The notes beneath the pieces were generated by a model. The model searched no databases. It was not told where the DNA came from and saw only the letters and a list, made by a program, of their open reading frames with translations. Below, in pieces: positions 1,601 through 14,158 of a stretch of 64,000 nt of DNA; position 1 is the first letter of the stretch; the number at the start of each line of letters is the position of its first letter. Made by a program: the position numbers and the translations under genes. The stretch comes from Bacteroidota bacterium (lineage in GTDB: Bacteria; Bacteroidota; Ignavibacteria; Ignavibacteriales; Melioribacteraceae): the NCBI GenBank assembly GCA_018818165.1, contig JAHISP010000008.1:1-64000 (forward strand). The letters run 5' to 3'.

Positions 1601-4600
1601 TCATTGATTTTGATTTTTCTTAAAGTTTTCTGCCTGTTCAAAAATTTCAACATACACTTCGTCTCTTTCAACTGGTGGATAGCCAAACTCGTCAAGTAAA
1701 AGAATGAGACCAACTTTCAAGGCTGATTTTATGTCGTCTCGTTTGTTCCAGTCGGGGAATTTGGCTTGTCCGTCAACAAGGACTTTCACAGCTTTTGCCA
1801 ATTCAATCATTTTATCGTCAGGGTATTTGAAATCATACTTTATACAAAGCTCTTTCAAAATGTCGTAAAACGCTTTTTCTTCAAAGTCAATTCCTAACTC
1901 GTCACCTGCCGAAAATTCTTTGTGGACTTCCCAAATTAAGTCTGTCAAGGCGTTTGCCATTTCTTCATATACTTCACTTCTCAAAATGTCGTTTGCATCA
2001 CGGTTGTTGTAACGTTCAACAAGTGCTTGCATTTTTTTAGAAAAGTCAATTCCTTTTACACGGTTTACTTTTCTTATTTCTCCAATCACTTTTGCAAGCA
2101 ACTGTTGAAGCAATTTAATTTTTGTATTCGGTAATTTGATTTTATCAATCTTAGCCAAATAATCTTCATCAAAAATATCTTGTTCGGTTTCTGCTTCGTC
2201 ACCGAGTTTGAAAATTTCTTCAACTCCATCACTTTGCAAAGCTTCTTTTATCATTTCCCGAACTTTGGAATTCATTTGTGCTGTGTCGGGTGCATTGCCT
2301 TTAGTGAGTTTGAAAACAATGGAACGAACTGCTAAATAAAAATGAATGTAATCTCTTTCTACCTGCGTCAACTGTTCACTGCCTGCACAAATATCATAAG
2401 CGGCTTTTAGTCGTTTTACTAAACCCATAAAACGGGTTTCATATTCTTTGGTTTTTTGCACAAACTCGGCAGCGAAATTCAAAGTGTTTAACTGCTGAAT
2501 GGTTGTGCCTTTGAAATATTTTGAGTTGTTGAATGTGTGAAACAGTTTAGCCAAAAGGTCTAAATTATTTCTTACAATAATGATGGATTCAGCAATATCC
2601 TCAAAATTGTCTTTGTCGCCTTCGCTGTATTGCTTCAACGCCAAATTCATTTGGTTTTTGATGCCTATATAATCTACTACCAAACCTTTGTTCTTACCTT
2701 TAAAATTGCGATTTACACGTGAAATGGTCTGAATTAAATTGTGTCGCTGTATCGGTTTGTCTATGTAAATACTATCCAAGAAAGGCACATCAAAACCGGT
2801 GAGCCACATATCTACCACAATAGCAATTTTGAAATTCGATTTTTCGTTTTTGAATTGTCGGTCTAATTCTTTGCGGTGCTCTTTTGTTCCTAATATATCA
2901 AACATTTCCTTAGGGTCGTCTTGTCCTCTTGTGGCAATTAGTTTGATTCGTTCAATGGGCTTCAGTTCCCGCTTGTCTTTTTCGGTAAGTTCCGCTCCTA
3001 CTTCGGATGCTCGTATTTCGTTCCATTCAGGTTTTAATGCAATTATATTTTTATACAACTCGTAAGCAATTTCACGAGTGCTGCACACAAACATTGCTTT
3101 GCCTTTTACGGTTGAACCTTCCGAAACTCTTTTTTCATAATGGTTTACAAAATCCTCTGCAACTGCTTTCAAACGGTCAGGATCGCCAATGATGGCATAC
3201 ATCTGCGCCATTTCTTTTTTACTCTGCTCAATCTGATTTTCATTACTACCCATTTCCGCACATTTGGCGTAATAATCTTCAATCTCTTTGAGTTTGGAAT
3301 TATTTAACAATACTTTGGCTGCCCTGCCTTCATACACAATTCTTACCGTAATTTCATCTTTCACCGACTCAGTCATTGTGTAAGCATCAACCACTTTACC
3401 AAAGACATCAAGCGTTGAATCTATTGGAGTTCCTGTAAAGCCAACAAAAGTCGCGTTGGGTAAGGAATCGTGTAAGTATTTGGCAAATCCAAAAGTTTTG
3501 ATAACACCTTTTTCGGTTACTTTCACTTTTTGGTCAAGATTTACCTGACTTCGGTGTGCTTCGTCTGAAATACAAATCACATTGCTTCTTTCGGTGAGCA
3601 GTTCGGTATCTTCTGTAAACTTGTGAATGGTTGTTAAAAATACGCCACCGCTTTTTCTTCCTCTTAACAAAGTTCGTAACTCCGCTCTGCTTTCTACGCT
3701 GGTAATATTATTGTCACCAATAAACTGTTTGGCATTGGTAAATTGACCCGATAGTTGGTCATCTAAATCCGTTCGGTCGGTTATCAATACAATGGTAGGA
3801 CTTTCAAAGTATTCGCTTTTCATTAACAACCTTGTGAGATAAAGCATTGTAAAACTCTTTCCACTTCCTGTTGCACCAAAGTATGTACCGCCTTTTCCGT
3901 TTCCATCGGGCTTTTGGACTTTCTTTATATTGTCATACAAGGCACGTGCTGCATAGTATTGCGGATAGCGACAAACAATTTTCTCGTCTTTCTTAGAACT
4001 ATCGGGTATGTAAATAAAGTTGCGAATAATATCACGTAAACGGTTTTTATGAAACATTCCCTGAATGAGTGTAAACATACTGTTAATACCGTCTACTTCC
4101 TTAGCAAGGCCTTCTACTCTTCGCCAACCATAGAAAAATTCGTAAGGGGCAAAGAACGAACCTGCTTTGTTGTTTACACCATCACTGATAACGCAAAACG
4201 CATTGTATTTAAACAGTTCGGAAATATCTCTGCGGTAACGAACAGTTAATTGTTTAAACGCATCAAAAATTGTGGCTTCTTCACGAATGGCACTTTTAAA
4301 TTCAAAAACTACTAAAGGCAAACCATTGATATACAAAATACCATCAGGAATACGTTTTTCCGTACCTACAATTTCCAATTGATTAACAAACTTATAAATA
4401 TTATTGTCTTTGCTATATTCTGATTTTACTTCTGCCACAATTGAAATCAATTGTTCTTCTTCGGGTTGTCGGTGTTTGTTCAGTCCCGAATAATTGATAA
4501 GCTGAATGTAAATGTCTTTTTGGTTGCGATCTTCCCGTTTCAGAATAAAACCGTCTGAAAGCATTTTTAAAAATGTTTTGTTGCTCTTGTATAGGTCGGA

Positions 4601-4816
4601 AGCGGGAAGAGTTTTAAGTTGAAGAATTATAGATTTGACTTCGTTTACGGTAATGCCCTGACTGGCGTATTGAGTAAGTAAAAAGCTCTGCAAATCTTCT
4701 TCAATCAATACTTCATCGGCATTTCGGGCAATTGTATTGCCCAAATGGTGTACAAATCCTTCTTGTTCCAATAACTCGGTAAATGCTTTTTCTAATTTTT
4801 CTTCGGTGAACTTCAT
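1601..4816 (-). CDS. hsdR: Type I restriction enzyme, R subunit
   Basis: A 1071-residue motor and nuclease subunit of a type I restriction system; with HsdM and HsdS it translocates and cuts unmodified DNA. Visible motifs in order: the PD-(D/E)xK nuclease residues Asp158, Glu172 and Lys174 (PDGILY...EFK), Walker A GATGSGKS at 314-321, DEAH at 418-421, the helicase GFTGTP segment near 458, and a late QTISRVNRNFKGK motif VI. The length is normal and the frame is intact. The start ATG (4814-4816) overlaps the stop of abiEii as ATGA, so translation is probably coupled. It is the last gene of the operon. Relics of its first 5-18 codons are found at three upstream junctions (see 6592-6645, 7643-7681, 7952-7969). 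Confidence 0.95.
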   Translation of the reverse strand: MKFTEEKLEKAFTELLEQEGFVHHLGNTIARNADEVLIEEDLQSFLLTQYASQGITVNEVKSIILQLKTLPASDLYKSNKTFLKMLSDGFILKREDRNQKDIYIQLINYSGLNKHRQPEEEQLISIVAEVKSEYSKDNNIYKFVNQLEIVGTEKRIPDGILYINGLPLVVFEFKSAIREEATIFDAFKQLTVRYRRDISELFKYNAFCVISDGVNNKAGSFFAPYEFFYGWRRVEGLAKEVDGINSMFTLIQGMFHKNRLRDIIRNFIYIPDSSKKDEKIVCRYPQYYAARALYDNIKKVQKPDGNGKGGTYFGATGSGKSFTMLYLTRLLMKSEYFESPTIVLITDRTDLDDQLSGQFTNAKQFIGDNNITSVESRAELRTLLRGRKSGGVFLTTIHKFTEDTELLTERSNVICISDEAHRSQVNLDQKVKVTEKGVIKTFGFAKYLHDSLPNATFVGFTGTPIDSTLDVFGKVVDAYTMTESVKDEITVRIVYEGRAAKVLLNNSKLKEIEDYYAKCAEMGSNENQIEQSKKEMAQMYAIIGDPDRLKAVAEDFVNHYEKRVSEGSTVKGKAMFVCSTREIAYELYKNIIALKPEWNEIRASEVGAELTEKDKRELKPIERIKLIATRGQDDPKEMFDILGTKEHRKELDRQFKNEKSNFKIAIVVDMWLTGFDVPFLDSIYIDKPIQRHNLIQTISRVNRNFKGKNKGLVVDYIGIKNQMNLALKQYSEGDKDNFEDIAESIIIVRNNLDLLAKLFHTFNNSKYFKGTTIQQLNTLNFAAEFVQKTKEYETRFMGLVKRLKAAYDICAGSEQLTQVERDYIHFYLAVRSIVFKLTKGNAPDTAQMNSKVREMIKEALQSDGVEEIFKLGDEAETEQDIFDEDYLAKIDKIKLPNTKIKLLQQLLAKVIGEIRKVNRVKGIDFSKKMQALVERYNNRDANDILRSEVYEEMANALTDLIWEVHKEFSAGDELGIDFEEKAFYDILKELCIKYDFKYPDDKMIELAKAVKVLVDGQAKFPDWNKRDDIKSALKVGLILLLDEFGYPPVERDEVYVEIFEQAENFKKNQNQ

Positions 4817-5802
4817 TGCTTGATTTCAATTTTTATTATCCAAGAAATTGCTTTTATTCTTTCCTGAATCATTTTTAAAGTTTCCAAAACATCTCCCTCT
4901 TTAGGTAATTCTCCATATACCAGATTTCTGAAACTACTTGTGTAAGTAACCTTCAACTCATTCCATACATTTTCCAAGTCTTTAAAAATAAGGGCTTCGT
5001 TCGGATGATGCACCAACCACTTATTGTTGTTTTTAAAACTTGCTTCATCATCATTGGCTACTTTTAAAAGCATTTCATCAAAATCCGTTGAGTGAAAGAA
5101 ATTTAAGAACACATCTTGATTAAGCAGCTGATGTAAATCGTAGATATGTCTTATCTTTTTCTTTAAATCATCCATAGGATTTTCGCCATAAGAAAAACGA
5201 ACCAAACTCATTATTTTTTCGCAAATGGTTCTTATGGGTTCTAATGCCAACAAGTTAAAAGGAAGGAGTATATTTTCTTTTGCAATATCAAACTGATTAT
5301 TATCCATCATCATTTGACCAACAAATGAAACAATGCTTTTGGTGGTAAAGGGTTCATAATATCCCAGCCAAGTTGATTCCAGTATGATAACATCTTTTAC
5401 CAGACCATAATCACCTTTAAATTCCTTGTTGTAGGTGTGTGCTGTTTTACGGTTCATTCCCATTTTATAGGTAATGCCTTCAATGGGAACTTCGGGTAAT
5501 ACGGTTTCTACAACCGTGCTTACTGCCTTTAATTTTGATTTTAACTTACTGTCGGTTTCTCCTTCACGCCTTAATAACACCAGGTCAATATCTTCTGAAA
5601 AGCGTTCTATCATATTGTAACACTTGGATAGAGCTGTTCCGCCTTTAAATACAGTGTCTTTTCCAATTTCATTATTAAAAATGGTAAATAGGGCATAGGT
5701 CACCCAATAGTCTTTTTCGACATATTCGGGTTGCAGGTTCATTTGCTGGGCAGTAAACCGAATGGCATCTCTGTAAAGCGATATGTTTTCGTGCAGCTTC
5801 AT
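4813..5802 (-). CDS. AbiEii-type nucleotidyltransferase toxin
   Basis: Belongs to the AbiEii/AbiGii family, the toxin half of type IV AbiE systems that cause abortive phage infection. The signature FKGGTALSK (about 56-64) followed by RFSEDIDL (71-78) is the nucleotidyltransferase GS...DxD core. AbiE toxins are proposed to transfer a nucleotide to an RNA target; the target here is unknown. I choose the ATG at 5802 (MKLHEN) because it overlaps the upstream antitoxin stop as ATGA; a longer frame starts at 5814. Its own stop overlaps the hsdR start as ATGA. The protein of about 329 residues appears complete. The position inside an hsd operon suggests it was added as a cargo pair with abiEi. Confidence 0.85.
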   Translation of the reverse strand: MKLHENISLYRDAIRFTAQQMNLQPEYVEKDYWVTYALFTIFNNEIGKDTVFKGGTALSKCYNMIERFSEDIDLVLLRREGETDSKLKSKLKAVSTVVETVLPEVPIEGITYKMGMNRKTAHTYNKEFKGDYGLVKDVIILESTWLGYYEPFTTKSIVSFVGQMMMDNNQFDIAKENILLPFNLLALEPIRTICEKIMSLVRFSYGENPMDDLKKKIRHIYDLHQLLNQDVFLNFFHSTDFDEMLLKVANDDEASFKNNNKWLVHHPNEALIFKDLENVWNELKVTYTSSFRNLVYGELPKEGDVLETLKMIQERIKAISWIIKIEIKQ

Positions 5803-6527
5803 TCGATGTACCATTTTGATTTAGTGGGCAACTCGGTTTCCTTTAATCCCAATTTGATTGCAGTGAGTGGGTTCAGGCTCTCTTTCAGTTTTTCCAAACC
5901 TTTTGTGTTTTGGCTATTATTCTCCAAAACTGCCCCTACCAATGCCCTTACTCTTGGGGGATAAACCAGAGAATATTTGAGTAAGGCTTCGGTTTGTTTT
6001 TCGTTGAGTTCTTTTACTATGGCACTTAATCTACGGACTGCCTGAGCTACCGGACAATCTGGAATGCGTTTGATGTCCTTAAAAGCATCCAGCAATCCTA
6101 AAATCTCGTAATTACGGTCGGTAACTTCGGCATAGCTTTTCACGGCATCCGCTTTCAAGGTTCCACTATTAATATTGATGCGTTTTCCCCTGCTGGCAAT
6201 TTTGATACGAAACGCCATTTGGGTGGTAAGTCCCAAGCGGTTGTAGAGCGATGTTCCTGTTTCGTATGCCACTCTGTTACCATTTTCGAACAGGTAAGGG
6301 CGAAGCAGTTCGCTATAGTCGGGCATTAATTCACCAAAAACAGTTTGCTCGGGTTTGTAAAACACCCCTTTTGAAACTTTTTTAATCAATCCCTTTTTTT
6401 GCAAGCGTTCCAGAGCTTTAGCGGCTGTGGTATAGTCTTCTTTGGCAATACGCAAATCGTCATACCCAAAGGTTTTGCCTTTGGGTAACTGCTTTATTCT
6501 ATTTCGTATTTGCGTTGCTAAATTCAT
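5799..6527 (-). CDS. DUF6088/AbiEi-type antitoxin
   Basis: A 242-residue partner of the downstream nucleotidyltransferase. The N-terminal 65 residues (RNRIKQLPKGKTFGYDDL... KKGLIKKVSKGVFYKP) form a winged-helix domain like AbiEi antitoxin domains, and the remainder matches the DUF6088 type seen beside AbiEii toxins in Bacteroidota. AbiEi proteins neutralise the toxin and repress their own promoter by binding inverted repeats; the dyad at 6554-6587, just upstream, fits that role. The stop overlaps the abiEii start by 4 bp. A -7-like TATCTTTA sits only a few bases before the ATG, suggesting an internal promoter with a very short leader. Confidence 0.8.
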   Translation of the reverse strand: MNLATQIRNRIKQLPKGKTFGYDDLRIAKEDYTTAAKALERLQKKGLIKKVSKGVFYKPEQTVFGELMPDYSELLRPYLFENGNRVAYETGTSLYNRLGLTTQMAFRIKIASRGKRININSGTLKADAVKSYAEVTDRNYEILGLLDAFKDIKRIPDCPVAQAVRRLSAIVKELNEKQTEALLKYSLVYPPRVRALVGAVLENNSQNTKGLEKLKESLNPLTAIKLGLKETELPTKSKWYIE

Positions 6528-6553
6528 ATTGTAAAGATAGTTATATTTTTTAT

Positions 6554-6587
6554 AATGTCAAGTTTATGGCGCAGAAAACTTGACATT
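6554..6587 (-). promoter_or_regulatory. Inverted-repeat operator upstream of abiE
   Basis: Perfect 12-bp arms AATGTCAAGTTT (6554-6565) and AAACTTGACATT (6576-6587) separated by 10 bp, 27 bp upstream of the abiEi ATG. On the minus strand one arm contains TTGACA, and TATCTTTA lies about 18 bp further on, so the dyad overlaps a plausible promoter. AbiEi antitoxins are known to bind such repeats for autorepression. A role as a terminator for the upstream genes is less likely because no U-run follows. Confidence 0.6.
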
Positions 6588-6591
6588 GATA

Positions 6592-6645
6592 TTGCCCCAA
6601 CAACTCGGCAAATGTTCTTTCTAATTTTTCTTCTGTGAATTTCAT
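6592..6645 (-). pseudogene. Relic of hsdR 5' end, copy 1 (about 18 codons)
   Basis: Reading from the ATG at 6645, the minus strand encodes MKFTEEKLERTFAELLGQ, which matches the first 18 residues of HsdR (MKFTEEKLEKAFTELLEQ) with four changes. At DNA level the differences are mainly transitions. Homology ends there and a short frame runs on to a stop near 6553, entering the abiE operator. The ATG overlaps the stop of the upstream rhuM-like gene as ATGA, the same junction that the real hsdR makes with abiEii. I read it as the start of a former hsdR that was displaced when the abiE pair and the present hsdR arrived. Confidence 0.8.
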
Positions 6646-7646
6646 TTTTTTAACTTACTCAATTTTTTGATGTCTTCCTCAATCTCTTTTAAACTCTGCT
6701 CTTTTTCATTCTCTTTTTGGGCAATCTTATATTTTTTAAACTCTGCTTCTGATTTTTTCAAAGACATTTCGTGGCTTATTTTTCCTGCGTGCGTTAGTAA
6801 TTCTCTGCCATTTAATTGCATAATAGTGTCCAACCGATTAATCCAATCTTTCATATACATTGGGGTGCGTTGCTGTGCCATAGTTTCGGCAAAGGCAAGA
6901 TATTGTTCCACCAAAAGCCCAAGTAATTTAATTTCAACTTCATTGAGGTAGTTTTTGGCTATGCTTATATCCGATTTTTTTATTGAAACAGAATTTTTCT
7001 TATCAAATGACTGCATACCTAACAATGGCAAACTAGCATCTACTCTTCGATACACTAATTCGGCTGCAGTCTGTTTGCTTATAGCCCATAGGAGTTTGTT
7101 TTGTACCACCTTAAAAAATTCAATTGTCTTTTCGTCCTTGGTATTATAATCTATGCTTGTAGTGTAAATGTCTTTTATTTTCTGATAGAAAAAGCGTTCC
7201 GAAAGTCGTATTTCCCTAATGCGTTCTTGCAATTCGTTGAAATAGTTCATTGAAGTGCCCGACTTAAAGCGGTCGTCATTAAGGGCAAAACCTTTGATAA
7301 TGTATTCTTTAAGCCGTTGTGTAGCCCAAATACGGAACTGAGTGCCCTGGGGCGATTTTACTCGATAGCCTACAGAAATTATTACATCAAGATTGTAGTG
7401 ATCTATCTCCCTTTCTACCTCTCTACTACCTTCTTGCCGAACCTGTCGGAATTTCCGACAAGTTCGATTTTGCTCTAATTCACCTTCCTCAAATACATTC
7501 CCAATATGTTCGGCTATTGTACTTCTGCCTTTGCCAAACAAAGTTGCCATTTGTTCCTGAGTAAGCCAAACAGTTTCTTCCTCTAGGCGAACATCAATTT
7601 TGATGTTGCCTTCGGGGTTTTGGTATATTATTATTTCGCCGCTCAT
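6642..7646 (-). CDS. RhuM-family protein, second copy
   Basis: A 334-residue protein of the RhuM/COG3943 family: an N-terminal helix-turn-helix-like segment (VWLTQEQMATLFGKGRSTI, about 27-45), then the family hallmark YNLDVIISVGYRVKSPQGTQ and FRIWATQRLKEYI. The C-terminal third is a charged, coiled-coil-like tail. RhuM-like proteins are common inside type I restriction operons; their biochemical role is not established. It starts at an ATG that overlaps the stop of the hsdR relic at 7643-7681 (ATATGAGC) and ends overlapping the next relic as ATGA, so it is translationally embedded in the operon. It shares the family fold with the rhuM copy at 11752-12618 but has a different C-terminus. Confidence 0.8.
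   Translation of the reverse strand: MSGEIIIYQNPEGNIKIDVRLEEETVWLTQEQMATLFGKGRSTIAEHIGNVFEEGELEQNRTCRKFRQVRQEGSREVEREIDHYNLDVIISVGYRVKSPQGTQFRIWATQRLKEYIIKGFALNDDRFKSGTSMNYFNELQERIREIRLSERFFYQKIKDIYTTSIDYNTKDEKTIEFFKVVQNKLLWAISKQTAAELVYRRVDASLPLLGMQSFDKKNSVSIKKSDISIAKNYLNEVEIKLLGLLVEQYLAFAETMAQQRTPMYMKDWINRLDTIMQLNGRELLTHAGKISHEMSLKKSEAEFKKYKIAQKENEKEQSLKEIEEDIKKLSKLKK
7441..7463 (-). repeat. Near-perfect palindrome inside rhuM copy 2
   Basis: Arms of 11 bp (7441-7451 and 7453-7463) around a single central base, with one mismatch, core TCGGAATTTCCGA. It encodes the CRKFRQ segment just before the conserved YNLDVIISVGYR motif. The other rhuM gene has a perfect palindrome at the equivalent codons (12405-12431). 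Confidence 0.6.
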
Positions 7647-7681
7647 ATCGCTTTTCCTAATTTTTCTTCTGTGAATTTCAT
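7643..7681 (-). pseudogene. Relic of hsdR 5' end, copy 2 (about 11 codons)
   Basis: From the ATG at 7681 the minus strand reads MKFTEEKLGKAI then a stop. The first 11 residues match HsdR MKFTEEKLEKA with one change. The ATG overlaps the stop of the truncated gene upstream (ATGA), and the mini-frame's own stop overlaps the start of rhuM copy 2. It may now act as a translational relay between the two genes. Its codons AAA TTC ACA are shared with the other relics, whereas the current hsdR uses AAG TTC ACC. Confidence 0.8.
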
Positions 7682-7953
7682 ACTTTAACTTTAATTATCC
7701 ATTGACCAGTTGTTTCATCAGCTGTTTTTGAATACATGATAACTTCTACACCACCATTCATTTCTTTAATATCCGGTTCAGGAAGTCCTGCTTCTTTACA
7801 GGCAGTTATAATTTTCAGTGTACCACGACCCCATGTATCAATATAACCGGCCATAAAACATGCATTGGCAAAACCGCATACCCATTTCAGGGAATAATCG
7901 TGCCAGCTTTGCTTGTATTCTATATTTTGTTTTTCAGTCATTTTGTAATACAT
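7678..7953 (-). pseudogene. AlbA_2/Schlafen-type ATP-binding protein with large internal deletion
   Basis: Only 87-91 codons remain of a family usually several hundred residues long (RecG-like helicase-related, AlbA_2 domain proteins, COG2865). The N-terminus MTEKQNIEYKQSW...KWVCGFANA is the start of the AlbA_2 domain, and it runs directly into CFMAGYIDTWGRGTLKII...CKEAGLPEP, which normally lies near the end. The join falls at ANA, a word likely present in both halves, suggesting an in-frame deletion at microhomology. The C-terminal extension is short. The frame is still open and may start at 7941 (MTEKQN, the usual family start) or 7953. It ends overlapping an hsdR relic as ATGA. Probably non-functional, though a small product could still be made. 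Confidence 0.75.
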
Positions 7954-7969
7954 CTTCTGTGAATTTCAT
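7952..7969 (-). pseudogene. Relic of hsdR 5' end, copy 3 (5-6 codons)
   Basis: The minus strand reads ATGAAATTCACAGAAGAT, coding MKFTED, 6 bp after the stop of the RloC-like gene. The first five codons equal those of relics 1 and 2. Homology ends where the truncated AlbA_2-type gene begins. On its own this would be too short to call; its identity with the other two relics and its position at a gene junction support it. Confidence 0.65.
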
Positions 7970-7975
7970 TTTCAA

Positions 7976-10561
7976 TTATATGTCTGAATGAATGAATGTT
8001 CTGTGTCTTGTCTTAAAGTTGTTTTTCCAATTCATATAGTCTCGAATATCTTGTTCAATTATGCTTTTCGTTGGTAATTGTGGAATTGTTGATGTGCCTC
8101 CATCGTGTTCAGCTATTGAATACTTGCCGAATAAGCCTAATAAAAAATCCACATCACTTTGTTCAACTACAATAAAACTGGATAAATTACTTTTCTTAAG
8201 GTGAATGTTTTTTGAAAATCGTTCATATGTTTTGTTAGCTAAAACTTCTTCAACACTTCTTTCAATTAAAAATCTAAATCTTTTTCTTGCAGAATCTAGT
8301 TTTGTTTCACGACCATGTGCCTCGGCGATATTCAGAGCATCATGTTCTCTTAATATTCTTCTTATAGATTCTACTCTTTCATCCACATTTTTGGCCAAAT
8401 ATGGAATTTCATCTGTTATGATTCCGCTTATCCCATTGAATTTATCAATTCCAATAATGTGACAATCTGTTGTAATCAGTGTTTTGTGAGTATCAATTAG
8501 CAAACGCAAAAATGACAAATCGTGTGTTAGTACAATTATCTGCCTATCCCTTGATAATTCAACTATTTTAGTGGCAATTAAATCTCGATAATCCATATCT
8601 AATGAAGTAACAGGGTCGTCAAATACAATACTATTCTTCCGATTATCAATTGTGCAGTCAGCCAAGAAATTTGAAAGTGCTATAACTTTTTTTTCTCCTT
8701 CACTTAAAACAGAATCTATTGAATGTGCAATGCCATTTAAACCACATTTTTGGAAAGTACTGCCGTCAGTTGTTCTGGTTTTTGAAATAAGAACTTTTGT
8801 TGATAAATCTTGATTGAAGAAACTTAGGTGATTTATAAACTCTTGATGCTGTAGGGTTACAGCTTGTACTTCCATAAACTCCCCGATTTTTCTTGAAACA
8901 TTAATATTAAGTTTTGACTTACATATATTAATCCGTTCTTTATATTTATATTCATCAAAATACTGTAAAATTATCGGCTTATTGTTAAATAAAAATTCAT
9001 TTACAACTAACTCATTATATTCATTTACTAAAGCATCTCTATTAGTTAGTAGTTGAATATTTTGGTCTAATTGAACAGCAATATTGGGCAACAAACTTTC
9101 AATTAGAGTGGAGATAGAATTTAAAGCTACGTTTATCTCACCGCCATTCTGTAAATAATTTAAAATGGCAGTTTTTGCTAAATTTAGTGATGTATTAAAT
9201 ACTCCAAATTGATTTTGGAAATCAGTAAGAAACTGTTCTAACTCTGCGAAATTTTCGAATGGTGCAACAACTAAATTATTATAGTCAGTAGTTTTCTGTT
9301 CAATTTCTCTTTGAATTGCACTCAGCTGGGTTGAAATATCATTCAATATGAATCTGCTAAAACCAAGCAATCTTTGCTTTGCAGATTCATCCAAATCTTG
9401 TTGACAGAATACGCATTTTTCTATTGATGCAGCAGATGGGAAACTTTGGCCATCAGTCATTCCGTTACTTTTTGCGAAATTTTTGGCTGCATCCCAAAGC
9501 GTTCTCCAAGGATTTGTTCCAAAACCAGCAATAGTATTCAAGCCGCTAAGTTCATTAGTTGCAATATCATAAGCCAATTTTACACTTTCATATCTACTTC
9601 TAAGACTTCTTACTTTTTGAATTTCAGTATCTTTGAACCGTTCTTCTATTCTTTTAAACTGTTGTATATAATTTTCTATTCTAGCTTTTAGAGAAGTTAG
9701 GTTCTGAATGTTTTGCTGAGGATTTTGAGAATTTAATAAGGCGAAAAGTTTCTGCTTCCTTGCCGATTCCGTTGGACTAAATTGAATATTGCTTTCTATT
9801 TCTTCTCTTATTTTTGATTCAATAATAGAATACCATTGGCTAGAATTCGTGTCAATTAAAGATTGGTCTACTACTGGCTTTTGTGTGTTGTAAGCAGTTA
9901 TTTCTGAACTTAATTTTTGTGAAATTTCATTCAAAACAGGAATTAACCTTTCCAGAACATCAATTCCAATCGGTTTATATTGGGTTGGATTTTCATTATT
10001 TACATAAATATTCCCACAATCATTATCATATACAAAAATTGAACTTAATGCAGAATGTGTCGAAGAATTTTCTAGCCATTGAAAAGGTATATTTGTTCCG
10101 TTAACCTCAACGATAAAATCAACTTTTTGTTGAGATGTGGAAGGAGAAAAAACATTTTTCTTTAATTCTATGTCCGAGTTTCTGCTCCAACATAGTTTTC
10201 TAAGAATTCTTGAATAGCTTGATTTGCCTGAACCATTATTTCCATAAACAACGGTCAAACCGGTATTTGGAAATTGCAGATGTCCTTGATTGTGTAAAGC
10301 ACAAATATTTATTGGGTCTTTAATACTGATTAATTTAGGGTATACTGTTCCGGTACCTATAGTTGTAGGAATATGAGTATTGTCAATTGGAATTGCATTT
10401 AAAGTAACTGAAGTGTCGCCATTTTCTTTTTTCAATAGCAAAACAAGCTCGTCAATGTCGTTTTGGCTTAGGGTTGTGCTTGAGATAATTCTCCTCAATG
10501 CATCTTTTAAAAACACTGGCTTATTGTTAGCCCAAATTAATATTTCATTATAAATAGCCAT
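7976..10561 (-). CDS. RloC-like SMC/ABC-type ATPase with zinc-hook motif
   Basis: An 861-residue protein with a split ABC ATPase: Walker A GNNGSGKSS at 107-115, a long coiled-coil middle, signature LSEGEKK at 619-625, Walker B IVFDDPVTSLD at 645-655 and a switch LTHD at 678-681. A single CVFC (Cys383, Cys386) in the middle of the coil is a zinc-hook motif, as in RloC and Rad50. RloC proteins (COG4694) are anticodon nucleases linked to phage defence and often sit beside restriction systems. A C-terminal ERSVEEV (Arg768, Glu772) plus His787 or His819 could be a nuclease site, but I cannot align it to the PrrC/RloC triad with confidence. It starts 4 bp after hsdS and is followed by relic 3. General ATPase assignment is firm, the nuclease function is inference. 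Confidence 0.75.
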   Translation of the reverse strand: MAIYNEILIWANNKPVFLKDALRRIISSTTLSQNDIDELVLLLKKENGDTSVTLNAIPIDNTHIPTTIGTGTVYPKLISIKDPINICALHNQGHLQFPNTGLTVVYGNNGSGKSSYSRILRKLCWSRNSDIELKKNVFSPSTSQQKVDFIVEVNGTNIPFQWLENSSTHSALSSIFVYDNDCGNIYVNNENPTQYKPIGIDVLERLIPVLNEISQKLSSEITAYNTQKPVVDQSLIDTNSSQWYSIIESKIREEIESNIQFSPTESARKQKLFALLNSQNPQQNIQNLTSLKARIENYIQQFKRIEERFKDTEIQKVRSLRSRYESVKLAYDIATNELSGLNTIAGFGTNPWRTLWDAAKNFAKSNGMTDGQSFPSAASIEKCVFCQQDLDESAKQRLLGFSRFILNDISTQLSAIQREIEQKTTDYNNLVVAPFENFAELEQFLTDFQNQFGVFNTSLNLAKTAILNYLQNGGEINVALNSISTLIESLLPNIAVQLDQNIQLLTNRDALVNEYNELVVNEFLFNNKPIILQYFDEYKYKERINICKSKLNINVSRKIGEFMEVQAVTLQHQEFINHLSFFNQDLSTKVLISKTRTTDGSTFQKCGLNGIAHSIDSVLSEGEKKVIALSNFLADCTIDNRKNSIVFDDPVTSLDMDYRDLIATKIVELSRDRQIIVLTHDLSFLRLLIDTHKTLITTDCHIIGIDKFNGISGIITDEIPYLAKNVDERVESIRRILREHDALNIAEAHGRETKLDSARKRFRFLIERSVEEVLANKTYERFSKNIHLKKSNLSSFIVVEQSDVDFLLGLFGKYSIAEHDGGTSTIPQLPTKSIIEQDIRDYMNWKNNFKTRHRTFIHSDI

Positions 10562-10565
10562 GCTT

Positions 10566-11765
10566 CTAATTTTCTACTGTTGCTAATTTGGAAAGTAAAA
10601 TATTCTTCAATTTGTTGAGTATTTTATTTTCATTGAATACTAAATCCAAATGTACCCCTATGGGCTTGACTTTTCTCGAAAAAGAATTTTGAATTTCAAT
10701 TGGAGGTATAATGAATGATAAAGTATTAAATGCTGTATGTGTTAAATCAAATTGAGCAGATGAACCTGACGCAAGTTCAACCATTGAATTAAATGTGTTC
10801 AGTTGACGAAGAAACCAATATAGATACTCTTTATGAACGAGGTTCTCAATTGGAGCAATTTTAAAGCAGTTATTATAAACAACACCCTCCTTATTTCGAA
10901 AAACTAACCCAACTTGTCCCGTCCTTGTGATAATAATATCTTCCTTTTTTGCAATATTCTTTTTGGTAACAGACTCATCAATAAAAATTTCTTTCGTATC
11001 ATTTATCAAATCAGTAATTCTAAGTAATGGAATACCTGTAGATTTTATTAAATGATTGGTCGTTGCGTTTACTACTAAGCCTTGGCTCAATTTTACATAA
11101 CTACCAATTTTATCATATTTCCAATTGTTTGGAACGGCACCTAATTCACCATCAACCATTTCCCCACCACTACTTTTATAAGGTTTGCCATTTTCATCAG
11201 GAAATTCAAACTCCACAAACCACTGCTTATAAATAGCTTGTGCGGTTTCTTCCAGTTTTTGTATCAGTTGTTTGTTTAGGGCTATGCGGTTTTGGATGAC
11301 GTTATATTCTTTTACTATTTCTCTTTGTTTGTCGGGGTGGGGAATGGGTAATTGCAAATTTTCAAAATCTTCCCATTCCAAACTTCCTCTTACACCGCCA
11401 ACAGCGTGAAAACAAGCCTCACGGTCAAACTCGGAACGAGTAAACCACATCATTAAATATTGGGGCAAAAGTTCTTTTTCATCTTTTACTTCAAAAATAG
11501 GATAGGCTTGTGAGATAATGGCTTCATCAACTTCCCGCAACAAAGCCAAAGGCATTTTTTTATCACGCCTTACTTGCATTGTGCTGCAAGCAAATTGATT
11601 TTTGCGAATGATTTTATAATTCTCCATATCCGTTCCAATGATATTGGCAACAGATGGAATAAACTGTTTCGAAATGCTTAATCCCAAAAGCTGTTTTACT
11701 TTCAGCCCTTTGTTTCGTTCATCTACAAGCTGAATAAAATTTCCTAAACGTCTATAATTTTTCAT
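10566..11765 (-). CDS. hsdS: Type I restriction-modification specificity subunit
   Basis: A 399-residue DNA-recognition subunit that directs HsdM and HsdR to a bipartite site. Two target-recognition halves are visible: the first ends near LEWEDFENLQLPIPHPDKQREIV (residues about 129-151), a hallmark of HsdS, followed by a conserved helix (NRIALNKQLIQKLEETAQAI), and the second starts near 210 (GELGAVPNNWKYDKIGSYV) and ends with FIIPPIEIQNSF. Length and two-repeat structure are normal. The start overlaps the upstream rhuM by 14 bp, and the RloC-like gene follows 4 bp downstream. Recognition sequence cannot be read from sequence. Confidence 0.9.
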   Translation of the reverse strand: MKNYRRLGNFIQLVDERNKGLKVKQLLGLSISKQFIPSVANIIGTDMENYKIIRKNQFACSTMQVRRDKKMPLALLREVDEAIISQAYPIFEVKDEKELLPQYLMMWFTRSEFDREACFHAVGGVRGSLEWEDFENLQLPIPHPDKQREIVKEYNVIQNRIALNKQLIQKLEETAQAIYKQWFVEFEFPDENGKPYKSSGGEMVDGELGAVPNNWKYDKIGSYVKLSQGLVVNATTNHLIKSTGIPLLRITDLINDTKEIFIDESVTKKNIAKKEDIIITRTGQVGLVFRNKEGVVYNNCFKIAPIENLVHKEYLYWFLRQLNTFNSMVELASGSSAQFDLTHTAFNTLSFIIPPIEIQNSFSRKVKPIGVHLDLVFNENKILNKLKNILLSKLATVEN

Positions 11766-12618
11766 TTACTTCTCTTTTCAGCTTGTTTATAATTTCGCTG
11801 GCAAAGCCTTCAATCTTGGTAAAAGCAAACCATTTTTTTCCTAAATCTTTAATGCTTGCACCAATATGATACACAACCGAATTGTCAATAATCAAAAACC
11901 GGTCATGGGCATTTTTAAAGATTTTAATTTCTATTGCAGGGTATTGTCCATTATGTTTTTCAATATCGAGTTTTAGTTGTTTGCTAATGTTTTGAGTGTA
12001 AATGCATGCAGATACATCATTGGTTCTTTTTCCTAATAAAACCAACACGCTATCATTAACATAATTATCTATCAAATCAATCGATTTTTTTGCTGTTCGA
12101 ACAATATCAGCAACAAAAGTATAGGCATCGAAAATTTGTCCATTAAAAAAAATTCCCTGTGTGGGTGGAAGAGATGAATTTATTTGCAAATCAATTCTGT
12201 CAATTTTTTCGCTAAGAGCAAATACGTTATCTTCTAATCGGTTTATGCGATTATTTACGGAATAACCTTTAAGTAAATAGTCTTTCAATATATTATTTGC
12301 CCAAATACGAAACTGAGTGCCTCTTATAGAATTAACCCTATATCCAACAGATATGATAACATCTAAATTATAGTGCTTTACATTGTAATTTTTCCCATCG
12401 GAGGCAGTTGTTCGGAAATTCCGAACAACTGAAATCTTATCCAATTCTCCCAAAATAAATATGTTTTTGAGGTGCTCACTTATATTTGCTTTGCTACTAT
12501 CAAACAACTCCACAATTTGCTGTTGTGAAAGCCAGATGGTTTCATCTGCAATATTTACCTCAATTTTGATGGAAGTGTTGTTTGCCTGAAATATTACTAT
12601 TTCGCTTTTAGATTTCAT
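11752..12618 (-). CDS. RhuM-like DNA-binding protein with C-terminal PLD-like region
   Basis: A 288-residue protein. The N-terminal half has the RhuM/ORF6N-like pattern: TIWLSQQQIVELFDSSKANI (about 27-46) and YNLDVIISVGYRVNSIRGTQ then FRIWANNILKDYL. The C-terminal half (about 155-285) carries HDRFLIID followed by VYHIGASIKDLGKKWFAF, a pattern seen in many such restriction-associated proteins and resembling a phospholipase-D-type HxKx4D motif with Arg in place of Lys. Its role in type I systems is unknown. It overlaps hsdM by 11 bp and hsdS by 14 bp, so it is an integral part of the hsdM-hsdS transcript. A perfect 27-bp palindrome lies in its coding sequence at 12405-12431. Confidence 0.8.
   Translation of the reverse strand: MKSKSEIVIFQANNTSIKIEVNIADETIWLSQQQIVELFDSSKANISEHLKNIFILGELDKISVVRNFRTTASDGKNYNVKHYNLDVIISVGYRVNSIRGTQFRIWANNILKDYLLKGYSVNNRINRLEDNVFALSEKIDRIDLQINSSLPPTQGIFFNGQIFDAYTFVADIVRTAKKSIDLIDNYVNDSVLVLLGKRTNDVSACIYTQNISKQLKLDIEKHNGQYPAIEIKIFKNAHDRFLIIDNSVVYHIGASIKDLGKKWFAFTKIEGFASEIINKLKREVNEKL
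12405..12431 (-). repeat. Perfect 27-bp palindrome inside rhuM copy 1
   Basis: Arms CAGTTGTTCGGAA (12405-12417) and its exact reverse complement (12419-12431) around one central base. It encodes the VVRNFRTT segment before YNLDVIISVGYR. The second rhuM copy has a closely similar palindrome at the same codons (7441-7463). It could be an intragenic operator, a hairpin acting in mRNA, or a constrained palindrome of unknown purpose. Confidence 0.65.
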
Positions 12619-14158
12619 ACCCCAACTCTTTAAAAACTTTTAATAAATCTTTTTTTGATTGTTCTTCGGCTTTTATCAGTTCGGCAAATTCATTTTTTAG
12701 AGTTTGCATTTTTTCATCAAAGTCAATGTTCTCATCACGGTTTACAAATTCTATGTACTTGCTCGGTACCAACGAAAAATCTTTCTTTTCTATTTCTTCA
12801 ATCTTTGCAGAATAACAGAACTCGGGAATATTTTCAATTTCCTTGGTTTGCCATTGGTGATACGTGCCAGTTATTTTGCTTATATCTTCTTCTGAAAACT
12901 GTATGTATTTTTTCTCAAATGGAATACCCATTTGTCGCAAATCCATAAAAAGGATTTCTGTTGAACGGTCACGGTAGTTGCGGGTATCATCACCTACTTT
13001 TTTCGTATGTGGTTTTTTGTTCTTGTTAAGAATCCAAAGCGTAACACTGATGTTAGTAGTGTAAAACATATCTTGTGGCAATACCAAAATGGCTTCTACC
13101 AAATTATTTTCAATCAGCTTTCTGCGTATTTTGTATTCTTCGCCACCGCCACTCAAAGCACCGTTTGCCAATATAAAACCTGCCACACCGTTGTCGCTTA
13201 GTTTGCTCACCATATTCAAAATCCAACCGTAGTTGGCGTTACTTTTGGGCGGCACATCATAACCTTGCCAACGTGGGTCGTCCATCAATTCGGTTGCTCC
13301 TCTCCAATCTTTCTGATTAAAAGGTGGATTTGCCATTATGTAATCGGCTTTCAGGTCTTTGTGCTGGTCGTCGGCAAAAGTGTTTGCTGCTTTTTCGCCC
13401 AGGTTACCGCTAATGCCGCGAATGGCAAGATTCATTTTTGCCAGTTTGTAGGTAGTGTTGGTGTATTCCTGTCCGTAAATAGAAACTTCTTTTTGGTTGC
13501 CATGATGTGCTTCAATAAACTTAATGGATTGCACAAACATTCCGCCCGAACCACATGCAGGGTCATAGATAATGCCTTTGTATGGTTCAATCATTTCGGC
13601 AATAAGATTTACAATGCTTTTTGGCGTGTAAAATTCACCTTTACCTTTTCCTTCTGCCAATGCAAATTTTGAAAGGAAGTATTCATACACTTTTCCCACG
13701 ACATCTTGTTTGGGGTCTTTGGTGGTGTCAATATCGTTAATTGTGTCAAGCAAAGAAGAGAGTTTGGTTACATCCAAACCCAAACGAGAAAAGTAATTAT
13801 CGGGTAATGCGCCTTTTAGTGCTTTGTTGTTTTTTTCAATGGTGTGCAGGGCAGTATCAATAAGTAGTGCAATATCATTTTGCTTCGATTTTTTTATCAG
13901 ATAACTCCAACGGCTCGATTCTTCCAAGAAGAAAACATTGTTCATGTTGTAGAAGTCAGCCATCTCAATGTATTTCGCTTTTCCCTCGGCAATCAGTTTG
14001 GCTCGGTGTTCTTCAAATTTGTCGCTGGCAAATTTTAAGAAAATCAGTCCTAATACTACATGTTTGTATTCGGCAGGCTCAACACTGCCTCGTAATTTAT
14101 TTGCTGCTTCCCAAAGTGTTACTTCAATTGCTTTTTCGTTTCCGTTCTTTTTTGCCAT
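12608..14158 (-). CDS. hsdM: Type I restriction-modification DNA methyltransferase subunit
   Basis: A 516-residue N6-adenine methyltransferase. An N-terminal helical domain (1-160) precedes the catalytic domain with GEFYTPKSIVNLI (174-186), the SAM-binding motif DPACGSGGMF (199-208) and the catalytic NPPF (277-280). The last 40 residues are a charged helix typical for HsdM, where it contacts HsdS. It protects host DNA and is the first gene of the operon. The start is at the ATG at 14158 (MAKKNGNEKA). A TATCTTTG promoter-like element lies about 32 bp upstream. Overlaps the next gene by 11 bp. Sequence looks less AT-rich than the flanking genome, consistent with transfer. Confidence 0.93.
   Translation of the reverse strand: MAKKNGNEKAIEVTLWEAANKLRGSVEPAEYKHVVLGLIFLKFASDKFEEHRAKLIAEGKAKYIEMADFYNMNNVFFLEESSRWSYLIKKSKQNDIALLIDTALHTIEKNNKALKGALPDNYFSRLGLDVTKLSSLLDTINDIDTTKDPKQDVVGKVYEYFLSKFALAEGKGKGEFYTPKSIVNLIAEMIEPYKGIIYDPACGSGGMFVQSIKFIEAHHGNQKEVSIYGQEYTNTTYKLAKMNLAIRGISGNLGEKAANTFADDQHKDLKADYIMANPPFNQKDWRGATELMDDPRWQGYDVPPKSNANYGWILNMVSKLSDNGVAGFILANGALSGGGEEYKIRRKLIENNLVEAILVLPQDMFYTTNISVTLWILNKNKKPHTKKVGDDTRNYRDRSTEILFMDLRQMGIPFEKKYIQFSEEDISKITGTYHQWQTKEIENIPEFCYSAKIEEIEKKDFSLVPSKYIEFVNRDENIDFDEKMQTLKNEFAELIKAEEQSKKDLLKVFKELGYEI

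Follow-up and report, generated by a model that had tools for sequence, protein, structure and literature searches.

The stretch analysed here, the first 64,000 nucleotides (nt) of the forward strand of contig JAHISP010000008.1 in a Bacteroidota assembly (GCA_018818165.1; Ignavibacteria, Melioribacteraceae), is termed the window. It carries a type I restriction-modification (R-M) operon on its minus strand, with the domains of HsdM (PF02384/PF12161), HsdS (PF01420) and HsdR (PF04313/PF18766/PF11867) all present, in the order M-(rhuM)-S-cargo-R, the cargo being the genes lodged between hsdS and hsdR. A preliminary description of the sequence had claimed that short copies of the hsdR start (relics) lie at three cargo junctions, and this was borne out: besides the true hsdR, with its ATG at 4816, copies of the hsdR 5' end begin with ATGs at 7969, 7681 and 6645, and match hsdR over 17 contiguous nt, 33 nt and 52-54 nt respectively. 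The features are as follows.

1601..4816, minus: hsdR, intact, the anchor of the scars (HSDR_N, SWI2_SNF2, T1RH-like_C; TIGR00348, 455 bits)
4813..5814, minus: abiEii, nucleotidyltransferase toxin, its stop overlapping hsdR via ATGA (PF08843; PADLOC AbiEii)
5799..6527, minus: abiEi, antitoxin/regulator (PF19570; PADLOC AbiEi)
6556..6585, minus: inverted repeat TGTCAAGTTT..AAACTTGACA upstream of abiEi, left edge of the abiE cassette (sequence reading)
6592..6645, minus: hsdR relic c, 52-54 nt, MKFTEEKLERTFAELLGQ, with ATGA overlap with the rhuM stop (nhmmer E=3.8e-12)
6642..7646, minus: rhuM cargo gene (PF13310; PADLOC candidate PDC-S05)
7649..7681, minus: hsdR relic b, 33 nt, MKFTEEKLGKA, the stop of its mini open reading frame (ORF) overlapping the rhuM start via ATGA (nhmmer E=0.0057)
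7678..7941, minus: AlbA_2-type gene (PF13749), matching its homologues in loci L028, L042 and L045 over 52 aa
7953..7969, minus: hsdR relic a, 17 nt, MKFTE, below the length that nhmmer lists
7976..10561, minus: RloC/PrrC-like AAA_13 ATPase cargo gene (PF13166; PADLOC candidate PDC-S06)
10566..11765, minus: hsdS (PF01420)
12608..14158, minus: hsdM (PF02384, PF12161)

Copies of the hsdR start at the cargo junctions

The 6645 relic stands before abiEi, that at 7681 before rhuM and that at 7969 before the AlbA_2-type fragment. Intact hsdR and the 6645 and 7681 relics each overlap the preceding gene's stop in the same ATGA, as the preliminary description had also noted; the 7969 relic lacks it, the stop of the RloC-like gene lying six bases ahead, at 7978-7976. 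The relics read AAA TTC ACA where hsdR has AAG TTC ACC. From this difference, which is real, descent from an older allele had been proposed, but "older" does not follow: the relic allele, AAATTCACA, is the present-day hsdR start of four related loci (L009, L011, L014 and L024), and is thus merely another allele.

Chance does not readily produce such copies. The motif ATGAARTTYACNGARGA has four matches in the genome of 4,876,841 bases, all of them within 3.2 kb at this locus (hsdR and the three relics). With up to two mismatches to the start pattern allowed, the window has four matches, against a mean of 0.63 in shuffled sequence, and none of 100 shuffles reached four; the best ungapped match between the first 60 nt of hsdR and the upstream part of the operon scores 31, compared with a maximum of 15 in 100 shuffles.

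Recurrence of the relics and their confinement to hsdR

Related loci were taken as the best 80 of 115 matches to the window HsdR, and so represent its close relatives rather than an even sample. The region upstream of hsdR was scanned in 78 loci, namely 77 of these 80 together with the window. Of the remaining three, L018 was left out for a misplaced match start, and L076 and L080 for missing hsdR 5' ends; loci L085-L123, with short flanks, lay outside the scan, and L008 entered the main scans, including the count of repeated gene ends given below, with a misplaced hsdR start. A matrix of the first 24 nt of hsdR, at a threshold score of at least 20, gave 23 matches on the plus strand (here the strand of the operon) over the 532 kb covered, and none on the minus strand or with the matrix reversed. 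Downstream of hsdR two plus-strand matches reached this score, although L008 contributed one of these with its genuine hsdR start; two downstream matches were rejected as an internal HKFTED codon run, and matches in L039 and L060 were judged false. A profile of the first 240 nt of hsdR, run with nhmmer at E<=1, gave 27 upstream rows, every one on the plus strand; a stretch in L023 that has lost the first 58 nt and an isolated, weak row in L015 (7014) were excluded from the relic count.

The tally is 26 relics in 20 of the 78 loci, the window and its 17-nt relic included, with lengths of 17 to 123 nt. Correction of two hsdR starts by tblastn added, beyond the 26, a relic of ~114 nt before an AlbA_2-like gene in L008 and an internal hsdR piece, from ~nt 289 to 370, in L018. 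In 55 loci hsdS lies on the same contig; cargo is present in 49 of these, among which 16 show a relic. The preliminary description had held that recurrence of relics of different lengths in related type I operons would speak for its case and their absence against it, and they do recur. The cargo adjoining them is varied: AbiE, RhuM, AlbA_2, GmrSD, a GajA/UvrD (Gabija-type) pair and SIR2-HerA, and further an ATPase/RloB pair, AbiH, YobI, YhcG and PDDEXK_3.

A gene related to those for REP-associated tyrosine transposases (RAYT-like) is frequent as the cargo gene immediately ahead of hsdR or of a relic, being present in 16 loci (e.g. L013, L033, L071); its NCBIfam match lies below the curated cut-off, and the L033 copy has no Pfam match. 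It was considered as the driver of the process and rejected, as other relic junctions, and the cases in other HsdR families, show no RAYT-like gene in their maps.

Repetition is almost confined to the hsdR start. When each gene's own 60-nt 5' end was sought upstream of it (score at least 18), hsdR showed a repeat in 17 of 68 loci, against 0/38 for hsdM, 0/45 for hsdS and 2/262 for cargo and other genes; with own 3' ends sought downstream at the same score, the figures were 1/47 for hsdS (L026, a scar locus), 0/45 for hsdM and 1/225 for cargo and other genes.

It is also not peculiar to one HsdR family. A control set of 80 HSDR_N genes was picked by hand among the matches listed from 128 Bacteroidota genomes; in five of them (L174, L188, L190, L224, L232) the gene begins with an MKFTE-like sequence as the window hsdR does, that of L232 being identical to the start of L037, and none of the five has a relic. 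Four of the 80 controls repeat their own hsdR start upstream on the same strand, with no repeats on the opposite strand or with the query reversed. As judged by sequence reading, these copies lie before an Abi_2-like gene (L166), before a HigB/HigA-like pair (L203) and before an ATPase/HNH pair resembling Septu (L216), while little coding sequence follows the fourth (L192). Two finished plasmids also carry relics: in that of Cetobacterium somerae (Fusobacteriota; L241), with a type IC-like HsdR, a 56-nt relic stands just before an ATPase cargo gene, and in a Chryseobacterium plasmid (NZ_CP041688.1; L238) an 87-nt relic is found. The latter (L238:7170-7337) carries the database entry WP_185145883.1, a warning to annotators that at least one relic has been deposited as a hypothetical protein. 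Eight other plasmid loci are relic-free: three from Psychrobacter (L234, L235, L239), one from Klebsiella (L236), one from E. coli (L237), and L240, L242 and L243; L244, in which hsdR is first in the operon, lay outside the relic scan. DNA related to L237 hsdR is present in 1114 of 5426 E. coli genomes, and the three type IC matches inspected (L245, L246, L247) each have an empty hsdS-hsdR gap of 121 nt. Several E. coli genomes among the matches listed contain partial hsdR 3' pieces under the name "type I restriction enzyme endonuclease domain-containing protein", which are perhaps scars of a related kind.

These data bear on two functional explanations. In the first, the MKFTE.. mini-ORFs are leader peptides retained as translational couplers between cargo genes. 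The mini-ORF before rhuM does end in an ATGA overlap in the window, L011 and L043, as does that before the RAYT-like gene of L011, so that the relaying of translation suggested in the preliminary description is possible there, but it is not general: the start codon is gone from the relics of L030, L042 (two) and L019 (at 3482), the reading frame from those of L046 and L083, and abiE cassettes that follow a relic have a promoter-like region of their own. Neither a conserved start nor a conserved frame or stop-start overlap, the marks of a coupling element, was found across the relics. In the second explanation the hsdR start is the attachment site of a site-specific cassette system, for which one may cite the cargo start codons that fall 28-35 nt past the relic start in several cases. 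Against it, the joints between relic and following DNA are spread from nt 17 to 123 and to ~370 of hsdR, and, of the two hallmarks of an integron-like system, a fixed attachment site is not seen, nor does any of the nine proteins of the window operon match a recombinase family. Both explanations also meet the same obstacle: the relics of unrelated HsdR families, including the targets that a cassette system would need, are unrelated in sequence, each copying its own hsdR start. Because of this the relics appear to be neither a general leader, a possibility by which the preliminary description would have been refuted, nor an attachment site; we regard the leader explanation as improbable and the cassette system as extremely so.

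What borders the relics

If a relic is the start of a former hsdR, the sequence just before it should be found before a real hsdR elsewhere. For 9 of the 25 relics tested, the 24-nt gene end that precedes the relic also precedes an intact hsdR in another locus: an hsdS end for L021 (23/24 nt, at L009 hsdR), the AlbA_2 end for the window 7681 relic (21/24, L042), the end of a UvrD-type helicase gene for L015 (20/24, L024), the RAYT-like gene end for relics of L011 (8956), L071, L082, L083 and L084 (19-20/24, L033, L036 or L013) and, a weaker case, the rhuM end for the window 6645 relic (17/24). The background for matches of at least 17/24 is 25 in 4123 positions, true cases included. In L019 the flank of the relic matches that of its own hsdR. 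A pairing of L014 with L008 was dropped, as the supposedly intact YhcG|hsdR junction of L008 is itself a relic, making the comparison one of relic with relic.

On the other side, nt 26-35 of hsdR hold the joints of 12 or 13 relics (with L046 ambiguous, and the window 7969 relic counted at 29), and the rest fall at nt 44 (one), 53-57 (six), near 74, 87 and 120-123 (three), with L008 at ~112-114 and L018 at ~370. The joints thus vary in position, and they join unrelated sequence; the donor's flank is known only where an hsdS tail is present. In L026 the relic (nt 1-56) is followed without a gap by the 3'-terminal codons of an hsdS gene, as is the hsdR piece of L018; scored with a matrix of hsdS tails, these reach 14.1 and 18.5 bits respectively, the maximum of 1630 control windows being 10.4, and L015, a weaker case, scores 6.4. 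In L238 a tail identical to that of the resident hsdS at 46 of 54 nt lies ~65 nt after the relic, with another copy after hsdS itself; it was seen by comparison with the locus's own hsdS, being too distant for the tail matrix. An hsdS tail following an hsdR piece, as in these three loci (L018, L026, L238), implies that the incoming DNA was part of another type I operon, running hsdS end - cargo - hsdR. By eye, hsdR stretches at the joints appear to share short words with hsdS tails, e.g. GAGTTGTTG.

The flanks also bear on a local origin, in which the insertion machinery would copy the resident hsdR start, as in a target-site duplication. Local hsdR is the closest match to the relic in L014, L015, L026 and L028, and L019 repeats upstream sequence together with the hsdR start, both as a duplication would have it. 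In the other 18 of the 22 relics tested, though, another genome's hsdR is closer, and the wide range of relic lengths, the hsdS tails and the same want of a recombinase family match in the window operon all speak against duplication, which we consider quite improbable. The L019 repeats, of ~160 nt with few mismatches (463-624 and 3575-3736; upstream gene end plus hsdR start), flank a block of a RAYT-like gene, an ATPase gene and rloB, and may reflect a fresher or a different kind of event.

Proposed joining of type I operons at hsdR

The reading that we favour, with a probability of about 0.72, is that each relic marks, as a scar, the place where two type I operons, or a resident operon and a fragment of another, were joined. 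The observations behind it are the relics and their recurrence, the restriction of repeats to the hsdR 5' end, the gene ends shared with intact hsdR, the hsdS tails of three loci and the occurrence of relics in unrelated families. The route was probably one-sided homologous recombination with an illegitimate joint. The resident operon would supply the sequence up to a few codons inside its own hsdR, and the incoming piece an hsdS end or cargo directly, then cargo, then hsdR; homology would align the partners on the hsdR side, and the other side would be closed by an illegitimate joint. The product would keep one working M, S, R set, gain cargo and retain 5-40 codons from the start of the former hsdR, at times together with the final codons of the donor's hsdS, and repeated joins would stack defence genes between hsdS and hsdR. 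Homologous exchange within hsdR, microhomology at the joint and the route of DNA entry are parts of the scheme that we infer, as is selection for compact coupled operons that would keep the relics short.

The footprints of the preliminary description do look like scars of insertion or fusion, but the genes need not have arrived singly, as it proposed, nor need the latest arrival lie beside hsdR, since in three loci the hsdS tails are on the cargo side. An incoming piece of another type I operon may hold one or several cargo genes, and the order of joins is not readable from gene position.

The principal competitor gives an identical scar. Two operons would have come to lie in tandem, and a deletion would then have removed the body of the first hsdR together with hsdM and most of hsdS from the second operon, so that an hsdR 5' end became fused to an hsdS 3' end. 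The resulting arrangement, hsdR piece - hsdS 3' piece - cargo - hsdR, is that of L018, L026 and L238, and such a history accounts as well for relic and hsdR being of different alleles. Among the locus architectures (on contigs that are often short), however, no two whole operons in tandem were recognised, and the joints cluster in the first ~123 nt of an hsdR of ~3.2 kb, the L018 joint excepted, which would be unexpected of unbiased deletion unless compactness were selected. We judge this history unlikely, though it is a serious contender.

Several results weigh against the joining of operons as we picture it. Tails of hsdS are rare: only L018 and L026 are clear among the 29 scars tested, the others bar L015 scoring below zero, and the window's three scars show none by the tail matrix. 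No relic was detected in 33 of the 49 cargo-bearing loci (32 after correction of L008). The local hsdR is the closest in 4 of 22 relics tested, and on average only 28% of the other hsdR genes are closer to a relic than is the local one, which could also mean local duplication, and ~134 nt of upstream sequence is repeated with the relic in L019. Loci with the same last cargo gene have hsdR 5' ends no more alike than others (354 of 500 permutations reach the observed value over nt 1-150), so that co-transfer of cargo and hsdR is not visible at this depth; too great a divergence of the loci, or too frequent a reshuffling of cargo with hsdR, may have hidden such a signal. Finally, when genomes were drawn evenly, only one of 15 with exact start-pattern matches had more than one, and that was the window's own; a second even draw gave two in 23, one the genome of L014, the other with its two copies on different contigs.

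A broader proposal, which we offer tentatively, is that such joints act as a ratchet. Fusion of type I operons through hsdR 5'/hsdS 3' joints would pool two cargos while a single M-S-R set is kept, and cargo lying between relic and hsdR, with homology on both sides, would spread further by ordinary homologous recombination, in general across HsdR families and phyla. If so, scars would ease later stacking, and the process would drive the accumulation of defence genes generally over that range.

Part of this has precedents. Genes of the rlo type are found in Campylobacter hsd loci, and embedded defence systems are reportedly the subject of a preprint by Payne et al. In enteropathogenic Escherichia coli, DarTG2 is embedded between hsdS and hsdR, a site called a potential recombination hotspot (PMC12255303); prrC lies within ecoprrI (PMC12707154), and PrrC-like genes accompany R-M and RhuM genes (PMC3710099). 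The genomic place and the kind of cargo are the same as here; hsdR relics or a joining mechanism do not figure in the parts of these reports available. The preliminary description's statement that no stacking mechanism is described was too strong: for the sequential displacement of effector-immunity modules in the Vibrio cholerae type VI secretion system (T6SS), and for the orphan 3' regions of Rhs arrays, homology-facilitated illegitimate recombination (HFIR) has been proposed (PMC5361080). Those arrays resemble the present loci in their successive modules at one locus, conserved anchor, illegitimate other side and remnants of earlier states, and differ in what the remnants are: immunity genes or orphaned 3' regions there, and in the present loci the opening codons of hsdR, in some cases with the closing codons of hsdS, between defence cargo genes. 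HFIR itself, homologous exchange at one end with an illegitimate joint at the other, is described for transformation and conjugation (PMC3240628); the two-ended pattern is the same, inferred in our case from fossil joints. No description of hsdR 5' relics was found in the literature searched, which covered few subscription journals or preprints. The hsdS-hsdR hotspot, and serial stacking by HFIR as a proposal, are already in print; the hsdR 5' scars may be new.

The scars, as sequence fossils of joins, bear on how defence genes come to cluster and to enter other defence operons: they would give a readable record of defence genes piling up at one place, marking the site of each join, the side of the joint and in some loci the partner (a further type I operon), and with them the filling of the hsdS-hsdR hotspot can be tested genome-wide.

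Other features of the window operon

The AlbA_2-type gene (7678-7941) has probably undergone a large internal deletion, to judge by its L028 homologue, which has SLFN_AlbA_2 and HATPase_c_4 domains: its first residues appear fused to the HATPase_c_4 part. Internal deletion, as in this remnant, may be a further route of decay for cargo genes. Inverted repeats similar to that at 6556..6585 precede abiEi in other loci, and the window copy is likely the AbiEi operator, as predicted from its sequence and place. Another gene of the RhuM family, a short one, is lodged between hsdM and hsdS (11752-12618); no relic of the hsdS start is found beside this insert (hsdS 5' repeats being 0/45 in the survey above). 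The same position is occupied by rhuM in L056 also, and by other genes in L046, L047, L054 and L062. Comparison of the abiE genes (window 4813-6527) with those of L014 (2073-3787) shows AbiEii to be 82% identical but AbiEi only 52%, a difference that would fit separate exchange of toxin and antitoxin.

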